From Nocardiopsis sp. TSRI0078 (lineage in GTDB: Bacteria > Actinomycetota > Actinomycetes > Streptosporangiales > Streptosporangiaceae), in contig NZ_LWLB01000033.1 in assembly GCF_001905145.1 (NCBI RefSeq), positions 248,001-312,000 of the forward strand: a stretch of DNA of 64,000 nt, written 5' to 3'. The notes under the pieces are model-generated. The model ran no database searches. It was not told the DNA's origin and was given only the letters and a program-made list of their open reading frames with translations. Numbering within the stretch: position 1 is the stretch's first letter; each line of letters starts with the position of its first letter. The translations under genes and the position numbers were made by a program. Shown here one piece after another: positions 46,184-52,253 of the stretch.

Positions 46184-47644
46184 ATGCCACCGACCCTGGG
46201 CGCCCTGGTGCGGGCGCCGCGCCTGCGGCTCAACCCGCTCACCGGACAGGAGGGCCTGGACCGGCAGGTGGAGTGGGTCGCCGTCAGCGAACTGGAGGAC
46301 CCCACCCCCTACCTGGCGGGCGGCGAACTCCTCCTCACCACCGGTGTGCGCTGGGCGACCGGTGTCCCCGACCTGCGCGACTACACCCGCCGCCTGGCCG
46401 AGCGCCGGATCGCCGGACTGGGCTTCGCCGTCGGCGTGGTCCTGGACGAGACCCCCGCCGAGCTCCGCGAGGCCGCCGCCGAGTTCGGCCTCGCCCTGCT
46501 GGAGGTCCCCCGGGACACCCCCTTCATCGCGATCGGCAAGGAGGTGTCCCGCCTCCTGGCCAAGGAGGAGTACGAGGGCCTGAGCCGGGCCTTCGCCGCG
46601 CAGCGCGACCTCACCCGCGCCGCGCTCACCGGGGCCCCGGCGGTCGTGGACCGGCTCGCCCGCGAACTCGGCGCCTGGGTGCTGCTGCTCTCCGCCGACG
46701 GCACGGTCCAGCACGCCGCTCCCGCCGGGGCCGCCGCGCGCGCCGCGGGACTGGTCGACGAGCTCGACCGGCTGCGCGGGGCGGGCGTGCGCTCCAGCGC
46801 CTCCCTGACCTCCGGGGACGAGAACGTCTCCGTGCAGCCCCTCGCCGTCGGCCGACGTGCCCGCGGGTTCCTCGCCGTGGGCACCGGCGGCCGGCTCGGC
46901 TCGGACGAGCGCACCCTGGTCAACGCCGCGGTCTCCCTGCTCTCCCTCGAACTGGAGCGCACCGTCCACAACGTCACGGCCCGGGTACGGGAGGGGGTGC
47001 TCGCGGCGCTGCTCACCGGGGCCCTGGACCCCCTCCACCCGGGGGCGGAGCGGCTGCGGGAGATCCTGCCCGCCGAACCCGTCGTGGTGGCGGCGGCCGA
47101 CGGGACCGGGGCCGCACCGCCGCCCGAGGGCGTCCTGGTCACCGAGCACGGCGGGCGCGCGCTGCTGCTGGCTCCCGCGGGCACGGCCACGGGAGTGCTC
47201 GGCGAGGTGTTGGAGGGGCCGGTCGGCGTGAGCGATCCCTGCCCCTACGCGGAGCTGTCCGCGGCGCTGTCCCAGGCCGAGCGCGCGCTGGAGGCCGCGC
47301 GCGGCGCGGGGGAGGACCTGCTCCGGGTCGGCGACCTGCCGGGAGGCCTGCTCGGCCTGGCGGACACCCCCGCCGGGGCCCGTATGGCCGGGGACCTGCT
47401 CGCTCCGCTCATGCGGCAGCGGACCTCGGCCGAACTGCTCGCCTCGCTGCGCGCCTACCTCGCGGCCTCGGGGCGGTGGGACGCGGCCGCGGAGGCCCTG
47501 GGCGTCCACCGGCACACGCTCCGCTACCGCATGCGGCGCATCCGCGACCTCCTCCCCGGGGACCTCGACGACCCCGACTACCGGGCCGAGCTCTGGATCG
47601 CCCTGCGCGTCCACGGCGCCGGGGGAGCCTCCGCGAACCGCTAG
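46184..47644 (+). CDS. PucR-family regulator (second copy)
   Basis: A 486-residue PucR protein with the same domain order as the first copy: N-terminal PucR domain (TLGALVRAPRLRLNPLTGQE, WVAVSELEDPTPYLAGGELLLTTG), CdaR-like centre, and helix-turn-helix (LAASGRWDAAAEALGVHRHTLRYRMRRIRDLL). The two copies differ through most of their length, so this is not a recent duplication. The divergent position makes gabT its likely target. GGGGGGAGAGCG precedes the ATG. No clear dyad was found in the 251-base gap before it. Confidence 0.9.
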   Translation: MPPTLGALVRAPRLRLNPLTGQEGLDRQVEWVAVSELEDPTPYLAGGELLLTTGVRWATGVPDLRDYTRRLAERRIAGLGFAVGVVLDETPAELREAAAEFGLALLEVPRDTPFIAIGKEVSRLLAKEEYEGLSRAFAAQRDLTRAALTGAPAVVDRLARELGAWVLLLSADGTVQHAAPAGAAARAAGLVDELDRLRGAGVRSSASLTSGDENVSVQPLAVGRRARGFLAVGTGGRLGSDERTLVNAAVSLLSLELERTVHNVTARVREGVLAALLTGALDPLHPGAERLREILPAEPVVVAAADGTGAAPPPEGVLVTEHGGRALLLAPAGTATGVLGEVLEGPVGVSDPCPYAELSAALSQAERALEAARGAGEDLLRVGDLPGGLLGLADTPAGARMAGDLLAPLMRQRTSAELLASLRAYLAASGRWDAAAEALGVHRHTLRYRMRRIRDLLPGDLDDPDYRAELWIALRVHGAGGASANR

Positions 47645-48119: not shown

Positions 48120-51100
48120 GTGAGGTCACTACGCGACGACGGGCACGCGGTCGGACACGGGTACGTGCCGGGAGCGGAACAGGGGGTCCTCGGGGGCCCG
48201 CCCGCCGCCGGCCAGGTCAGCCGGTCGGGGGTCGGTAGCGCCTCCCTGCGCTGGAAGCCGCCGATCGACCGCGACGAGGTCCGGTCCCTCCTGGCCTACC
48301 TGCGCGCCTGCCTGCGCCGCGAGGCCGTGCACACCCACCCCGTCCGCGCCGACGAGCTCGGCTCCGACAGCTGCGCCTGCCTGCCCGCGGGGCCCGAGGC
48401 CCTGTTCAGCGGAGCCCGGGAGACCCTCATGCTCTCCCCCGAGGCCGCGCGGGTCCTGCGCCTGGCGCGGAGCCGGGGCCAGGCGCCGCGCTACGGCTAC
48501 CCGCTGGTGCTGCTGGGAGAGGGCGAGGACCGCCTCGCCCTGCCCCTGCTCGTCGTCGACGTGCTGGCCGTGGAGGACGGCGGCGACCCCCGCGCCGAAC
48601 CCGGGGGCACACTGGTCCGCGCGGTCGGCCCGCCCGACGTCAACCCCGCCCTGCTGGAGCGGCTCGGCGTCACCGACCCCGAGGACCTGTTCGAGCTGCG
48701 CACCCGGCTGCGCTCGGGGGCGCCCGACCCCCTGCGCCGCCCCGCCGCCGTCGCCGACCTCGCGGCCAAGGTCCGCGCCCTGCTCGCCCGGCTGGAGGTC
48801 GAGAGGGTGGACGACATCGCCCCCCTGGGCACCCGGAGCACCCCGCGCACCGACACCGACGGCGCCCACAACGTCGCCGTGTTCCTCCGCGCCGGTCCCG
48901 GAGGCCGGCACGGGGCCGACGGGTACGGCCCCGGCGGCGTCGAGGGCGTCCTCGCGGATCTGGACCCCTCCGAACGGGACGGCCTCGATCCCGAGGCCAT
49001 CGGCGGGACGGCGCTGGAGCCCCTTCTCGGGCGGACCACGACGGCCCGACGGGCCGACACCACCGCACCGGCTCCCCCCGGACGGCTCTTCGGCGGCCGG
49101 GGGAGCCCCCGGCGCACCGCCCGGGCCGTCCCCCCGTCCGCCGACACCGACGGCTCCACCGTCCCGGTCTGCGCGCTCCCCCTCCGCCAGTCCCAGTACG
49201 CCGTGCTGGACTCCGCCATGCGCGAGCGGCTCACCGTGGCCGCGGCTCCCCCCGGAAGCGGTGTGCACGACCTGGTGGACACCCTCGTCCGCACCGCCGT
49301 CAGCAACGGCCGGCGCGTCCTGGTCTGCGGGCGCACCGAGACCGACATCGCCGAGATCGGCGCCCGCGCGGACATCCCGCCCGCGCACTCCCTCGTCCGT
49401 GCGGGCGGAAGCGAGCACCGCGCCGCCGAGGTGCTGCTGCTCACCCGGCTCCTCACCGAGCACGCCCGGAGCATGTCCGCGGCCCGGGCCGACTCCGGCG
49501 GGGAGGACCTTCCCGCCCACCGGGCCGACCCGGCCGAGGACTGGGCGCGGGTCCGCGAGGCCTGGCGGACGATGGACACCATGGCCTCCGGCGGGCACGC
49601 GCTCGCCTACCTGGCGGAGGAACGCGGCCGCGCCATCGCCCGGGGGTGGGACCCCGACTCCCTCTTCACCCCGGAGCGCGGCGGTCCCGAGTACTGGCTG
49701 CGGCGGGCCGAACGCGCCCGGGCGGGCGTCCTCTCGGGGCTGCGCCACCGTGGCGCCGTCCGCCGTGAGCTGGGGGTGGACACCGACCCCGACAGCCTCG
49801 ACCGACTGTGCGCGGTCGCCCGTCTGGAGAGCGAGTGGCGGTCGGCGGTGGACCGGCGCACCCGCTGTGCGCCGCTGGGCGAGCTGACCGCCGAGCTGGC
49901 CGACGCCCTGGACCGGCACCGCGGCTCCAGCGCCGCCCGCCTGCGCTCGGTCGCCGAGCCCCGGCTGTGGCGGGGCCGCGCCGCCATCGAGAACCGGCTG
50001 GAGACCCTCAACTGGTACCACGGCAACGGCTGGCCCGGACTGGACAGCCTGCTCGACACCCTGCCCGCGTGGATGTGCCGCACCGACCAGGTCAGGGCGC
50101 TGCCGCCGCAGGCGGGCCTGTTCGACCTGGTCGTCGTGGTCGGTGCGGAGCGCACCCGGGTGGCCGAGCTGCTGCCCGCGCTCTATCGCGCCCACCGCGC
50201 CGTGGTCCTCGGCGACCCGGCGCACCCGGGGCCGGCGAGTTCGCTGGAACCGGAGGAGGAACGCCGTGCGCTGGCCACCGCGGGGCTGGCCGTGGACCAG
50301 TTGGACGACCGGGGACTGCGCCACGGCATGGGTTCGGCGATACGGGCCCTGTACCGGGCGGCGCCGCCCCTGATGTGGCTGGACGAGCACGACGGGGCAC
50401 CGCCCCGGCTCGCCGAGGCCGCCTCACGGCACTGCTACGGGGGCAGGGTCACGGTGCGCACCACCCCCGACCCCGCCGGGGGCCCGGCGTTCGAGTGGCG
50501 CGACGTCGCCGGTGTCTGCGAGACGGCCCCCGGCGCGTCCTACGTCAACCGGGACGAGGCCTACCGGGTGGCGGTGGTGGTGGACGAGATCGACGAGCAC
50601 CTGCCGCGCGGACGGGTGGTGGCGGTCGTCGCGCCGGCCCAGCCCCAGGTCGCCCTGATCCGCCGCCTGCTGCGCACGCGCGTCCTGCGGCATGAGGTGC
50701 GGGTCGGCGGCCCCGACCTCCTGGCGTGCGACCGCGACGCGGTGGACGTCACCGTGCTCTCGCCGATGCTCACCTTCGGCGCGCCCACCATCGCCGAGCG
50801 CCGGATCCGCCGGATGGGCCACCTGTGGTCGTCGGTGCTGACCCGTACCCGCCAGCGGCTGGTGGTGGTGGGCGACCGCGGGTACTGGTCGGGTGACGGA
50901 GGGCCGCTGGGCGACCTGGACGCGGTGGCCTCGGGCGCCTGCGCGGTGCGGGCCGACCCGGCCGCCTCCGCTCTGGTGGCGGAGCTGCGCCGGGTGGGTA
51001 CGGAGGTGACCCTCCAGCAGACGGCCGAGGGCTGGACCGCCGACATGGTGGTCCGGTTCGGGTCCCGCCGCCTGCTGCTCCTGCTCGACCGCGAACCCGA

Positions 51101-51239
51101 CGGCCGGTCCCTGCGCCACCTGCTCGCCCGGGGGGAGTCGCTCAACCGCGTCACCGGGGATCCCGTGGTGCTGGTGCCCGCATGGCGCTGCCTGGCCGAC
51201 CCGCGCACCCTCGTGGAGGAGATCCTCACCGCCCGCTGA
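48120..51239 (+). CDS. Large SF1-helicase-fold protein with degenerate Walker motifs and a Vsr-like C-terminus
   Basis: A 1039-residue soluble protein. From residue 360 it follows the order of an Upf1/Dna2-type helicase: LPLRQSQYAVLDSAM (Q motif), a Walker A position reading APPGSGVHDL (376-385), motif Ia RRVLVCGRTETDIAEI, a Walker B position FDLVVVVGAERTR (668-680), RAVVLGDPAHPGP, RGRVVAVVAPAQPQVALIRRLL and LTRTRQRLVVVGDR. The Walker A lysine is Val382, the next residue is His383, and the Walker B Asp-Glu is Val674-Gly675, so ATP hydrolysis is unlikely. The last 75 residues, ending DPVVLVPAWRCLADPRTLVEEIL, resemble the end of a Vsr/DUF559 nuclease without its acidic residues. The N-terminal 340 residues are unassigned. 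The frame is fully intact, which argues for a retained function. Neighbours are pucR and a DNA glycosylase gene. Confidence 0.6.
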   Translation: MRSLRDDGHAVGHGYVPGAEQGVLGGPPAAGQVSRSGVGSASLRWKPPIDRDEVRSLLAYLRACLRREAVHTHPVRADELGSDSCACLPAGPEALFSGARETLMLSPEAARVLRLARSRGQAPRYGYPLVLLGEGEDRLALPLLVVDVLAVEDGGDPRAEPGGTLVRAVGPPDVNPALLERLGVTDPEDLFELRTRLRSGAPDPLRRPAAVADLAAKVRALLARLEVERVDDIAPLGTRSTPRTDTDGAHNVAVFLRAGPGGRHGADGYGPGGVEGVLADLDPSERDGLDPEAIGGTALEPLLGRTTTARRADTTAPAPPGRLFGGRGSPRRTARAVPPSADTDGSTVPVCALPLRQSQYAVLDSAMRERLTVAAAPPGSGVHDLVDTLVRTAVSNGRRVLVCGRTETDIAEIGARADIPPAHSLVRAGGSEHRAAEVLLLTRLLTEHARSMSAARADSGGEDLPAHRADPAEDWARVREAWRTMDTMASGGHALAYLAEERGRAIARGWDPDSLFTPERGGPEYWLRRAERARAGVLSGLRHRGAVRRELGVDTDPDSLDRLCAVARLESEWRSAVDRRTRCAPLGELTAELADALDRHRGSSAARLRSVAEPRLWRGRAAIENRLETLNWYHGNGWPGLDSLLDTLPAWMCRTDQVRALPPQAGLFDLVVVVGAERTRVAELLPALYRAHRAVVLGDPAHPGPASSLEPEEERRALATAGLAVDQLDDRGLRHGMGSAIRALYRAAPPLMWLDEHDGAPPRLAEAASRHCYGGRVTVRTTPDPAGGPAFEWRDVAGVCETAPGASYVNRDEAYRVAVVVDEIDEHLPRGRVVAVVAPAQPQVALIRRLLRTRVLRHEVRVGGPDLLACDRDAVDVTVLSPMLTFGAPTIAERRIRRMGHLWSSVLTRTRQRLVVVGDRGYWSGDGGPLGDLDAVASGACAVRADPAASALVAELRRVGTEVTLQQTAEGWTADMVVRFGSRRLLLLLDREPDGRSLRHLLARGESLNRVTGDPVVLVPAWRCLADPRTLVEEILTAR

Positions 51240-51362: not shown

Positions 51363-52253
51363 GTGCCTGAGGGCCACACGCTGCACCGGCTGGCGGCGCA
51401 CTTCGACAAGACCTTCGGCGGCGGCACGGTGCGTGCGAGCAGCCCGCAGGGCCGTTTCGCCGACGGCGCCGCCCGCGTGGACGGCCGGGTCCTCACCGAG
51501 AGCGAGGCGCACGGCAAGCACCTCTTCCTCGGGTTCGACTCGGGGGAGTGGCTGCGGGTCCACCTGGGCCTGTACGGCGCCTGGTCCTTCGGCGACGCCG
51601 ACGGCGAACGCCATCTGGGCGCGCCGCGGGCCGGGGGCGGCGCCCGACGGGAACTGGCCCGCGACGACGAGGGCTTCGTCCTGCCGCCCGCACCGGTCGG
51701 CGCGGTACGCGCCCGGCTGGTCAACTCCTCCGGCTGGGCCGACCTGCGCGGCCCCTCGGCCTGCGAGGTCCTCACCGAGGAGGAGAAGCGGGCCGTCCAG
51801 GACCGGCTGGGCCCCGATCCCCTGCGTGCCGACGCCGATCCCGAGCGGGCCTGGCGCGTGGTCGGCCGCTCCCGGACCAGCATCGCCGCGCTGCTCATGC
51901 GCCAGGACGTCGTGGCGGGGATCGGCAACATCTACCGGGCCGAGTCGCTGTTCCGGGCGGGCCTGGACCCCACGACCCCGGGCCGCGACCTCACGTTCGA
52001 CCAGTGGACACGGCTGTGGGACGACCTCGCCGGGCTGCTCCGCGACGGCGTGCGCGACGGCTACATCATCACCACCCTGCCCGAGCACCGCCCCGACCCC
52101 GAAGCCCGTCCCGTGCCCCGACCGGACACCCTCTACGTCTGCTACCGCACGGGCGACCCCTGCCGCGTGTGCTCCTCGCCGATCGCCTCCTCCGCACTGG
52201 CCGGGCGCACCCTCTACTGGTGCCCCGGGTGCCAGGGAGGCTCACGGGATTGA
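51363..52253 (+). CDS. nei: Fpg/Nei family DNA glycosylase/AP lyase
   Basis: A 296-residue base-excision repair enzyme. The catalytic Pro2-Glu3 follows the initiator (PEGHTLHRLA), Lys52 is in AHGKHLFL, and the helix-two-turn-helix is LLMRQDVVAGIGNIYRAESLF. The C-terminal zinc finger keeps both cysteine pairs, CRVC and CPGC. The PEGHT start and the finger sequence fit the actinobacterial Nei2 group rather than MutM, so oxidised pyrimidines are the likely substrates. The start is GTG with a GGGGAGAGGGGAA ribosome binding site. Confidence 0.93.
   Translation: MPEGHTLHRLAAHFDKTFGGGTVRASSPQGRFADGAARVDGRVLTESEAHGKHLFLGFDSGEWLRVHLGLYGAWSFGDADGERHLGAPRAGGGARRELARDDEGFVLPPAPVGAVRARLVNSSGWADLRGPSACEVLTEEEKRAVQDRLGPDPLRADADPERAWRVVGRSRTSIAALLMRQDVVAGIGNIYRAESLFRAGLDPTTPGRDLTFDQWTRLWDDLAGLLRDGVRDGYIITTLPEHRPDPEARPVPRPDTLYVCYRTGDPCRVCSSPIASSALAGRTLYWCPGCQGGSRD

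Follow-up and report, generated by a model that had tools for sequence, protein, structure and literature searches.

A genus-wide pseudo-helicase of Nocardiopsis as a probable dead derivative of caspase-helicase effectors

The window analysed here is a stretch of 64,000 nucleotides from Nocardiopsis sp. TSRI0078 (contig NZ_LWLB01000033.1, positions 248,001 to 312,000). It carries a gene for a 1039-residue protein with a superfamily 1 (SF1) helicase fold that has lost its ATPase residues and was designated the pseudo-helicase (PH). The features of the locus are as follows, in window coordinates.

48120..51239, + strand: pseudo-helicase gene (PH), 1039 aa, GTG start, with a match in 37/37 genus genomes searched
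48252..49034, + strand: N domain of PH, residues ~45-305, common to active caspase-helicases, ratio of nonsynonymous to synonymous substitution rates (dN/dS) 0.29
49245..49271, + strand: Walker A remnant APPGSGVHD, residues 376-384, with Lys and Ser/Thr gone
50121..50150, + strand: Walker B remnant FDLVVVVGAE, residues 668-677, with Asp-Glu replaced; every genus row has Gly675 and Glu677
50382..50399, + strand: motif IV remnant DEHDGA (active relatives have DEHYRC), residues 755-760
50952..51230, + strand: C-terminal restriction-endonuclease (REase)-like domain, residues ~945-1037, recognized by eye and secondary structure, without a Pfam hit
51363..52253, + strand: Nei/Fpg-type glycosylase gene, the neighbour 123 bp 3' of PH, named from reading of its translation
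46184..47644, + strand: PucR-type regulator gene 5' of PH, which helps mark the locus, named from reading of its translation

The intact reading frame described in an earlier note on this DNA was confirmed: it runs from the GTG through 1039 codons without a stop, and its start is backed by orthologues. The sequence (V/L/M)RSL opens 30 of the 33 aligned genus rows; two of the others lack this region and the third (L025) is in another frame there. GTG or TTG starts and the absence of stops were found in all 20 coding sequences checked, a set from which four of the 23 named genus loci (L065, L067, L068 and L070) were left out. These 23 loci are from Nocardiopsis, except for two carrying the names Glycomyces fuscus and Streptomonospora nanhaiensis. 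The GC content by codon position (0.81/0.56/0.95) is that of a real high-GC gene. An antisense frame of 753 codons lies under PH (window 48129-50390, - strand), as expected for a by-product of high third-position GC (GC3). A promoter and terminator scan around PH found nothing and is uninformative at such GC content.

All 37 genus genomes searched (the window's own and 36 others) contained a PH match, which was whole in one frame in 30 genomes, cut by a contig end in five (G009, G017, G025, G026 and G036) and interrupted by frame changes in two. In one of the latter (L025, G021:C75) the change lies near residue 160, where error and true decay are indistinguishable. The other is G013 (L047), in which, as in L070 (Nocardiopsis eucommiae CP074402), PH is broken by frame changes and the neighbouring genes match partly; with completeness listed at 84%, these interruptions probably reflect sequence quality.

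The genus alignment comprised 33 rows including that of the window (G013, G017, G026 and G036 are not included). None of the 33 has the Walker A Lys, position 382 being occupied by Val (13 rows), Ala (11), Leu (3), Asp (3), Ile (2) or Met (1), and the following His383 is found in 24 rows, with Thr in one and Ser in none. In Walker B, Val674 is present in 17 rows and Asp never occurs there, while Gly675 and Glu677 are found in all 33 rows; nine active rows have Ser or Thr at the latter position. The motif IV Arg is replaced by Gly (32 rows) or Asp (one row), with the adjacent Tyr also lost, and the same is true of the motif Ia Asn-Asn, the motif III Gln and the motif V Thr and Gln. The loop G-x-G and the Thr-Arg of motif VI are retained. 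The Walker remnants quoted in the earlier note are present, and GDP and LTRTRQRLVVVGD are kept as it had described. Thus, the loss of ATPase residues is universal in the genus, but among the four positions that the note had singled out as possibly fixed (382, 383, 674 and 675) only Gly675 is a fixed replacement. No normal GKT/DE pair was found in close orthologues, the GKS/DE combination being located in a separate caspase-bearing paralogue, and the inactivation of PH, as judged from these alignments, is not recent decay.

The matches of PH to Pfam (AAA_12, E 1.1e-4, and AAA_11) remained below threshold, as did that to the IGHMBP2-type NCBIfam model TIGR00376 (E 4.8e-6). A profile of PH orthologs matched IGHMBP2/UPF1 among PDB sequences with a best E of 5.7e-8. 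An AlphaFold model, built with an input of 20 sequences from a single genus, had a mean predicted local distance difference test score (pLDDT) of 59.6 and a predicted template modelling score (pTM) of 0.43, with a poor N domain, a confident first lobe and a second lobe partly of low pLDDT. Its best PDB matches include UPF1, IGHMBP2, Sen1, Dna2 and spliceosomal Aquarius chains. Foldseek returned E values down to 1e-10 with template modelling (TM) scores of at most 0.26 among the ranks listed, and VIA-align gave a Z of 19.6 to 2wjy and 4b3g with a root-mean-square deviation of 23.5 over 273-282 residues. Given the low TM-scores and this deviation, the first RecA lobe of the model supplies most of the structural match. 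Together, the alignments and structure matches bear out the proposal that the PH core is an SF1 helicase fold without ATPase residues, of the two-lobe UPF1/IGHMBP2 type.

The 340-residue N-terminal domain, which the earlier note could not place, turned out to be common to PH and intact caspase-helicase relatives, although no fold name can be assigned to it. In the C-terminal domain, Asp975 and Asp990 are invariant and the Glu of an ExK-type motif is absent, likewise in the caspase-helicases. Its assignment to the Vsr/DUF559 type is plausible by eye and from secondary structure, but no Pfam model matches. In the active paralogues L031-L039 the REase-like end also lacks the ExK Glu by eye (five shown) despite intact Walker motifs; therefore, this domain was perhaps non-catalytic before PH arose.

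The dN/dS values were calculated by the NG86 method for seven PH ortholog pairs, not all fully independent, and four active-paralogue pairs, with dS biased at GC3 0.95 in both sets. The overall ratio was 0.32 for PH and 0.26 for the active paralogue. In the P-loop region PH showed 0.54 (0.35-0.84) versus 0.10 (0.05-0.17) in the active proteins. The ratios were 0.16 versus 0.07 in motifs II-III, 0.29 versus 0.21 in the N domain and 0.25 versus 0.17 in lobe 2, whereas PH had the lower values in the helical insert (0.32 versus 0.47) and the REase-like end (0.22 versus 0.27). Eleven active relatives share 111 invariant columns; 47 of these are kept in 8/8 PH rows and 37 in 0/8, and the lost columns include motifs of the ATP site and of nucleic-acid contact. 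In a neutral simulation over the divergence to the nearest PH orthologue, the frame stayed free of stops in 3.8% of runs. PH is thus under purifying selection with a P-loop relaxed relative to intact relatives. The suggestion that it is selected for something other than ATP-driven unwinding holds, with dN/dS ~0.32 and the losses common to orthologues.

The nearest intact relatives of PH are fusions of a caspase, the N domain, an SF1 helicase and the REase-like end. Of the 40 genus genomes covered, 12 have such a caspase-helicase paralogue, which also occurs in other genera and is missing from the window's own genome. It is mostly an open frame of 1235-1418 aa with GAPGTGKS or GAPGTGKT, DEAS or DEAT, and DEHYRC. 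Only a C-terminal part of the G025 paralogue is present, on a contig of 3.9 kb, and that of G006 (L040, G006:C11) is spread over several frames and so looks broken or badly assembled. The N-terminal caspase passes Pfam in 9 of the 12 genus paralogues (PF00656 with E 6.7e-15 in L033) and fails in G020, G033 and G025; the G033 row retains SGHG and DCC by alignment. The NCBIfam model NF047832, 'caspase, EACC1-associated type' (caspase_w_EACC1), scored above its cut-off in L033, L125, L126 and L128. Plasmid carriage of the caspase-helicase was rejected: 712 plasmid records match it partly and none reaches 80% coverage. Two caspase-domain matches were observed at some distance from PH. One, in the window's own genome (G000:C33:316339-316734, 35 bits, in a 286-aa frame), lies ~4.3 kb past the window end and ~17 kb downstream of PH, with no EACC1-like match in that genome; the other is ~20 kb from PH in G028 (C1:1274063).

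A small gene of ~120-200 codons is located directly upstream of the caspase-helicase, with a 4-bp overlap in L123, L125 and L132. A profile built from ten of these partner genes (A2) matched at all 16 caspase-helicase loci whose upstream side was covered (L031-L040, L123-L126, L128 and L132). Within the genus the partner is found in 11 of the 12 genomes with a caspase-helicase, the twelfth being the G025 fragment, which lacks the 5' part. Weaker A2 matches were detected in seven further genus genomes, each adjoining another caspase gene. Pfam EACC1 was above cut-off for the L126 partner only (G243, 30.7 bits), and the ten partners scanned singly gave no convincing Pfam model; hence, we call this one partner EACC1 and the rest EACC1-like. 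With A2, neither the window nor any of the dead loci covered, many of them with just 1.5 kb of flank, gave an EACC1-like frame, and neither Pfam EACC1 nor A2 detected an EACC1 in the window's own genome. A GmrSD_N-type restriction gene is close to the L132 pair and a Schlafen-group-3 helicase gene to the L123 pair, each at most 0.2 kb away, surroundings as expected of defence neighbourhoods.

A search of the bacterial family, covering 120 genomes from 68 genera, gave some match in 32 genomes, and 12 rows from eight sister genera (g72, g85, g94, g104, g106, g107, g117 and g119) were aligned. In a midpoint-rooted tree they form one clade with eight Nocardiopsis rows (support 100/100), placed beside seven intact relatives of the same family (94/87, midpoint root). 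The Walker A Lys is absent from all 12 sister-genus rows and the Walker B Glu remains in four. The losses are thus uneven, and the catalytic sites degraded step by step, the Walker A Lys being missing from every row. The dead members of g104, g106, g107 and g117 still have the caspase domain at the N-terminus, but with both catalytic residues (His and Cys) lost in 5/5 rows, and the four tested matched caspase_w_EACC1 below cut-off. The Nocardiopsis PH and the g72 and g85 rows have no caspase domain, and the N-terminal stretches of g94 and g119 are unalignable. For the PH of the window, neither Pfam nor NCBIfam gave a caspase match.

Another actinomycete family (f21) contains a second dead group. 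Some match was found in 16 of its 22 genomes and a close caspase-helicase in 14. The caspase His is Tyr in all 13 rows covering it. In Walker A the Lys remains in 12 of 14 rows and the next Ser/Thr is replaced in all 14, whereas Walker B has DD or HD in 13 rows and DE in one; the motif IV Arg is Gly in 14/14. One tested member narrowly passes the caspase_w_EACC1 cut-off (140.5 vs 140). By sequence, the f21 group is thus less fully dead than PH. It clusters with the intact relative L126 (100/99) and not with PH. A common origin of both dead groups was rejected in a one-clade test (log-likelihood difference 57.6, p of the approximately unbiased test 3.6e-7) under the model used; the test covered 35 rows, from which the long L041 and L078 had been dropped, had long branches and took its groups from the first tree. 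The comparisons thus point to separate inactivation in f21. No theme emerged from the genes next to one of the dead f21 proteins (Exo_endo_phos, Uma2 and alcohol dehydrogenase).

Among known systems, the intact relatives of PH match the layout of the EACC1-caspase two-gene conflict system, in which a small gene lies 5' of the gene for the caspase effector. This system is described as 'System 4' in Kaur et al. 2020 (PMC7159879). In contrast, PH has no caspase domain and no adjoining EACC1-like gene, its effector part is dead, and it sits at a conserved locus throughout the genus. With UPF1/IGHMBP2-type SF1 helicases (TIGR00376, AAA_11/AAA_12) PH has the core fold in common, but its motifs I, Ia, II, III, IV and V are without key residues. 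The MkoC model of Mokosh (PADLOC MkoC/MkoA) matches PH residues 665-863 with E 1.2e-11; the match spans just profile positions 668-891 of 1136, and the PH motifs are dead. Mokosh, PLuB, Hhe and ProA were rejected as identities for PH, with which they have helicase stretches alone in common, the NCBIfam models scoring far below cut-off. RecC is a pseudohelicase, having a helicase fold without working ATPase motifs. To our knowledge, neither RecC nor the pseudohelicases PriA and Utp25 are derived from an immune caspase fusion, unlike PH. Deinococcus radiodurans PriA (PMC4504706) and Utp25 (PMC9539457) are likewise reported to have a helicase fold without working ATPase motifs. Caspase-helicase fusions are not new as such, since 12 prokaryotic caspase homologues with helicase-activity domains are counted in PMC3501461; EACC1-caspase systems have also been described, and PMC8195603 bears on EACC1 by its title. 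Our literature search found no paper describing the PH family by title or abstract start, and no domesticated dead derivative, stepwise decay or case parallel to that of f21.

Considering these data, PH is probably an exapted, catalytically dead effector of the EACC1-caspase two-gene conflict system that acts by binding. Its origin and inactivation are well supported by the sequence comparisons. According to the tree, the ATPase and caspase sites would have been lost in an ancestor of nine genera, and the caspase domain later in Nocardiopsis and other genera. The present protein would neither hydrolyse ATP nor cleave, and may act constitutively as a scaffold, decoy or dominant-negative, occupying a target or partner that its active ancestor used; nucleic acid, a phage protein, another helicase or a caspase component are candidate targets. 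Decoy or dominant-negative action is favoured by analogy, since such a role is proposed for inactive enzymes of related systems by Kaur et al. (PMC7159879), and PH is present with or without an active paralogue. The defence component envisaged in the earlier note fits this ancestry, but PH occupies a conserved place genus-wide among neighbours that are non-defence by reading of their translations, no defence scan having been made.

The neighbouring glycosylase gene, present as the earlier note had reported, suggests instead a DNA-repair scaffold working with Nei, that is, a RecC- or PriA-like pseudohelicase binding DNA without unwinding it. Nei follows PH in 22 of the 23 named Nocardiopsis loci (the exception is a contig edge) with a gap of 68-230 bp in unbroken loci, and 9 of 10 sister-genus loci have it on that side of PH as well; the D. 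radiodurans PriA is reported to be a pseudohelicase that retains DNA binding (PMC4504706). However, the gap widens to 0.13-5.8 kb in sister genera, where the PucR-type gene is upstream of PH in 5 of 10 loci (beyond Nei in L118). Furthermore, one sister genus (G165) has PH but no near homologue of Nei, the best reaching 32% identity, while G140 and G094, from two family genera, have Nei at 52-55% identity over the gene without PH. The tie to Nei is therefore positional and not obligatory: constant in Nocardiopsis, dispensable elsewhere. Motifs Ia and V contact nucleic acid, and the loss of their residues weakens the idea of a DNA-binding scaffold, also raised in the earlier note. We consider this explanation unlikely, and the data do not support a dedicated link of PH to either Nei or the active paralogue.

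Slightly more doubtful still is the idea that PH is dedicated to inhibiting active caspase-helicase systems or to conferring immunity against them, for example by pairing with the active paralogue. The two proteins have domains in common, and the decoy or dominant-negative role proposed for inactive enzymes (PMC7159879) would suit it, but PH is found in 37/37 genus genomes against 12/40 for the paralogue, which is missing from the window's own genome. A guard function of PH against incoming caspase-helicase copies is possible. A slowly decaying, functionless relic would explain its faster evolution than three neighbours, its variable dead sites and the frame changes in two genus copies; with 30 of 37 copies whole in one frame and five of the others cut by contig ends, dN/dS ~0.3, and Gly675 and Glu677 fixed, this is very improbable. 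Least credible of all is that PH is still driven by ATP through a non-canonical P-loop: the loop retains G-x-G and motif VI its Thr-Arg, but the genus rows have lost the Lys of Walker A, the Asp-Glu of Walker B, the Gln of motif III, the Arg of motif IV and the Thr and Gln of motif V.

Several points weigh against PH as an exapted conflict-system effector. The structural model is mediocre and its Foldseek TM-scores are low. EACC1 identity is backed by Pfam for the L126 partner only, the others being linked through our own profile, and the absence of EACC1 beside dead genes, as seen in these sequences, rests on available flanks and selected genomes. No EACC1 was found in the 14 f21 genomes, but that search matched no control either, so that absence is not proven. 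The motif IV Arg remains in 8 of 12 sister-genus rows and the Walker B DEA in one, as in stepwise losses. Frame changes in the G013 and G021 copies (the latter near residue 160) may be errors or decay, and the dN/dS of PH exceeded those of PucR, Nei and LacI in 4/4 pairs tested.

The exapted effector may also belong to a wider pattern, which we put forward tentatively. EACC1-caspase-helicase effectors might repeatedly have become core proteins that are constitutive and non-enzymatic, with at least two cases among the Actinomycetes, without detectable adjoining EACC1 and with caspase and helicase sites degraded in parallel (motif IV YR to xG in Nocardiopsis and f21). The pseudo-effector would then be kept genus-wide to act permanently against phage or rival systems, as a decoy or dominant-negative.

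Among working proteins, the caspase-helicase fusions of a predicted immune system are nearest to PH, which thus looks like an immune weapon turned into a housekeeping protein without enzymatic activity. The kinship of bacterial caspase systems with apoptosis and immunity is under discussion, but their pseudoenzyme fate is hardly described. Here, a readable series leads from the active two-gene system through a dead caspase-helicase to the bare pseudo-helicase, with a parallel case in another family. Together, they make the role of dead immune effectors testable by knock-outs in soil actinomycetes.

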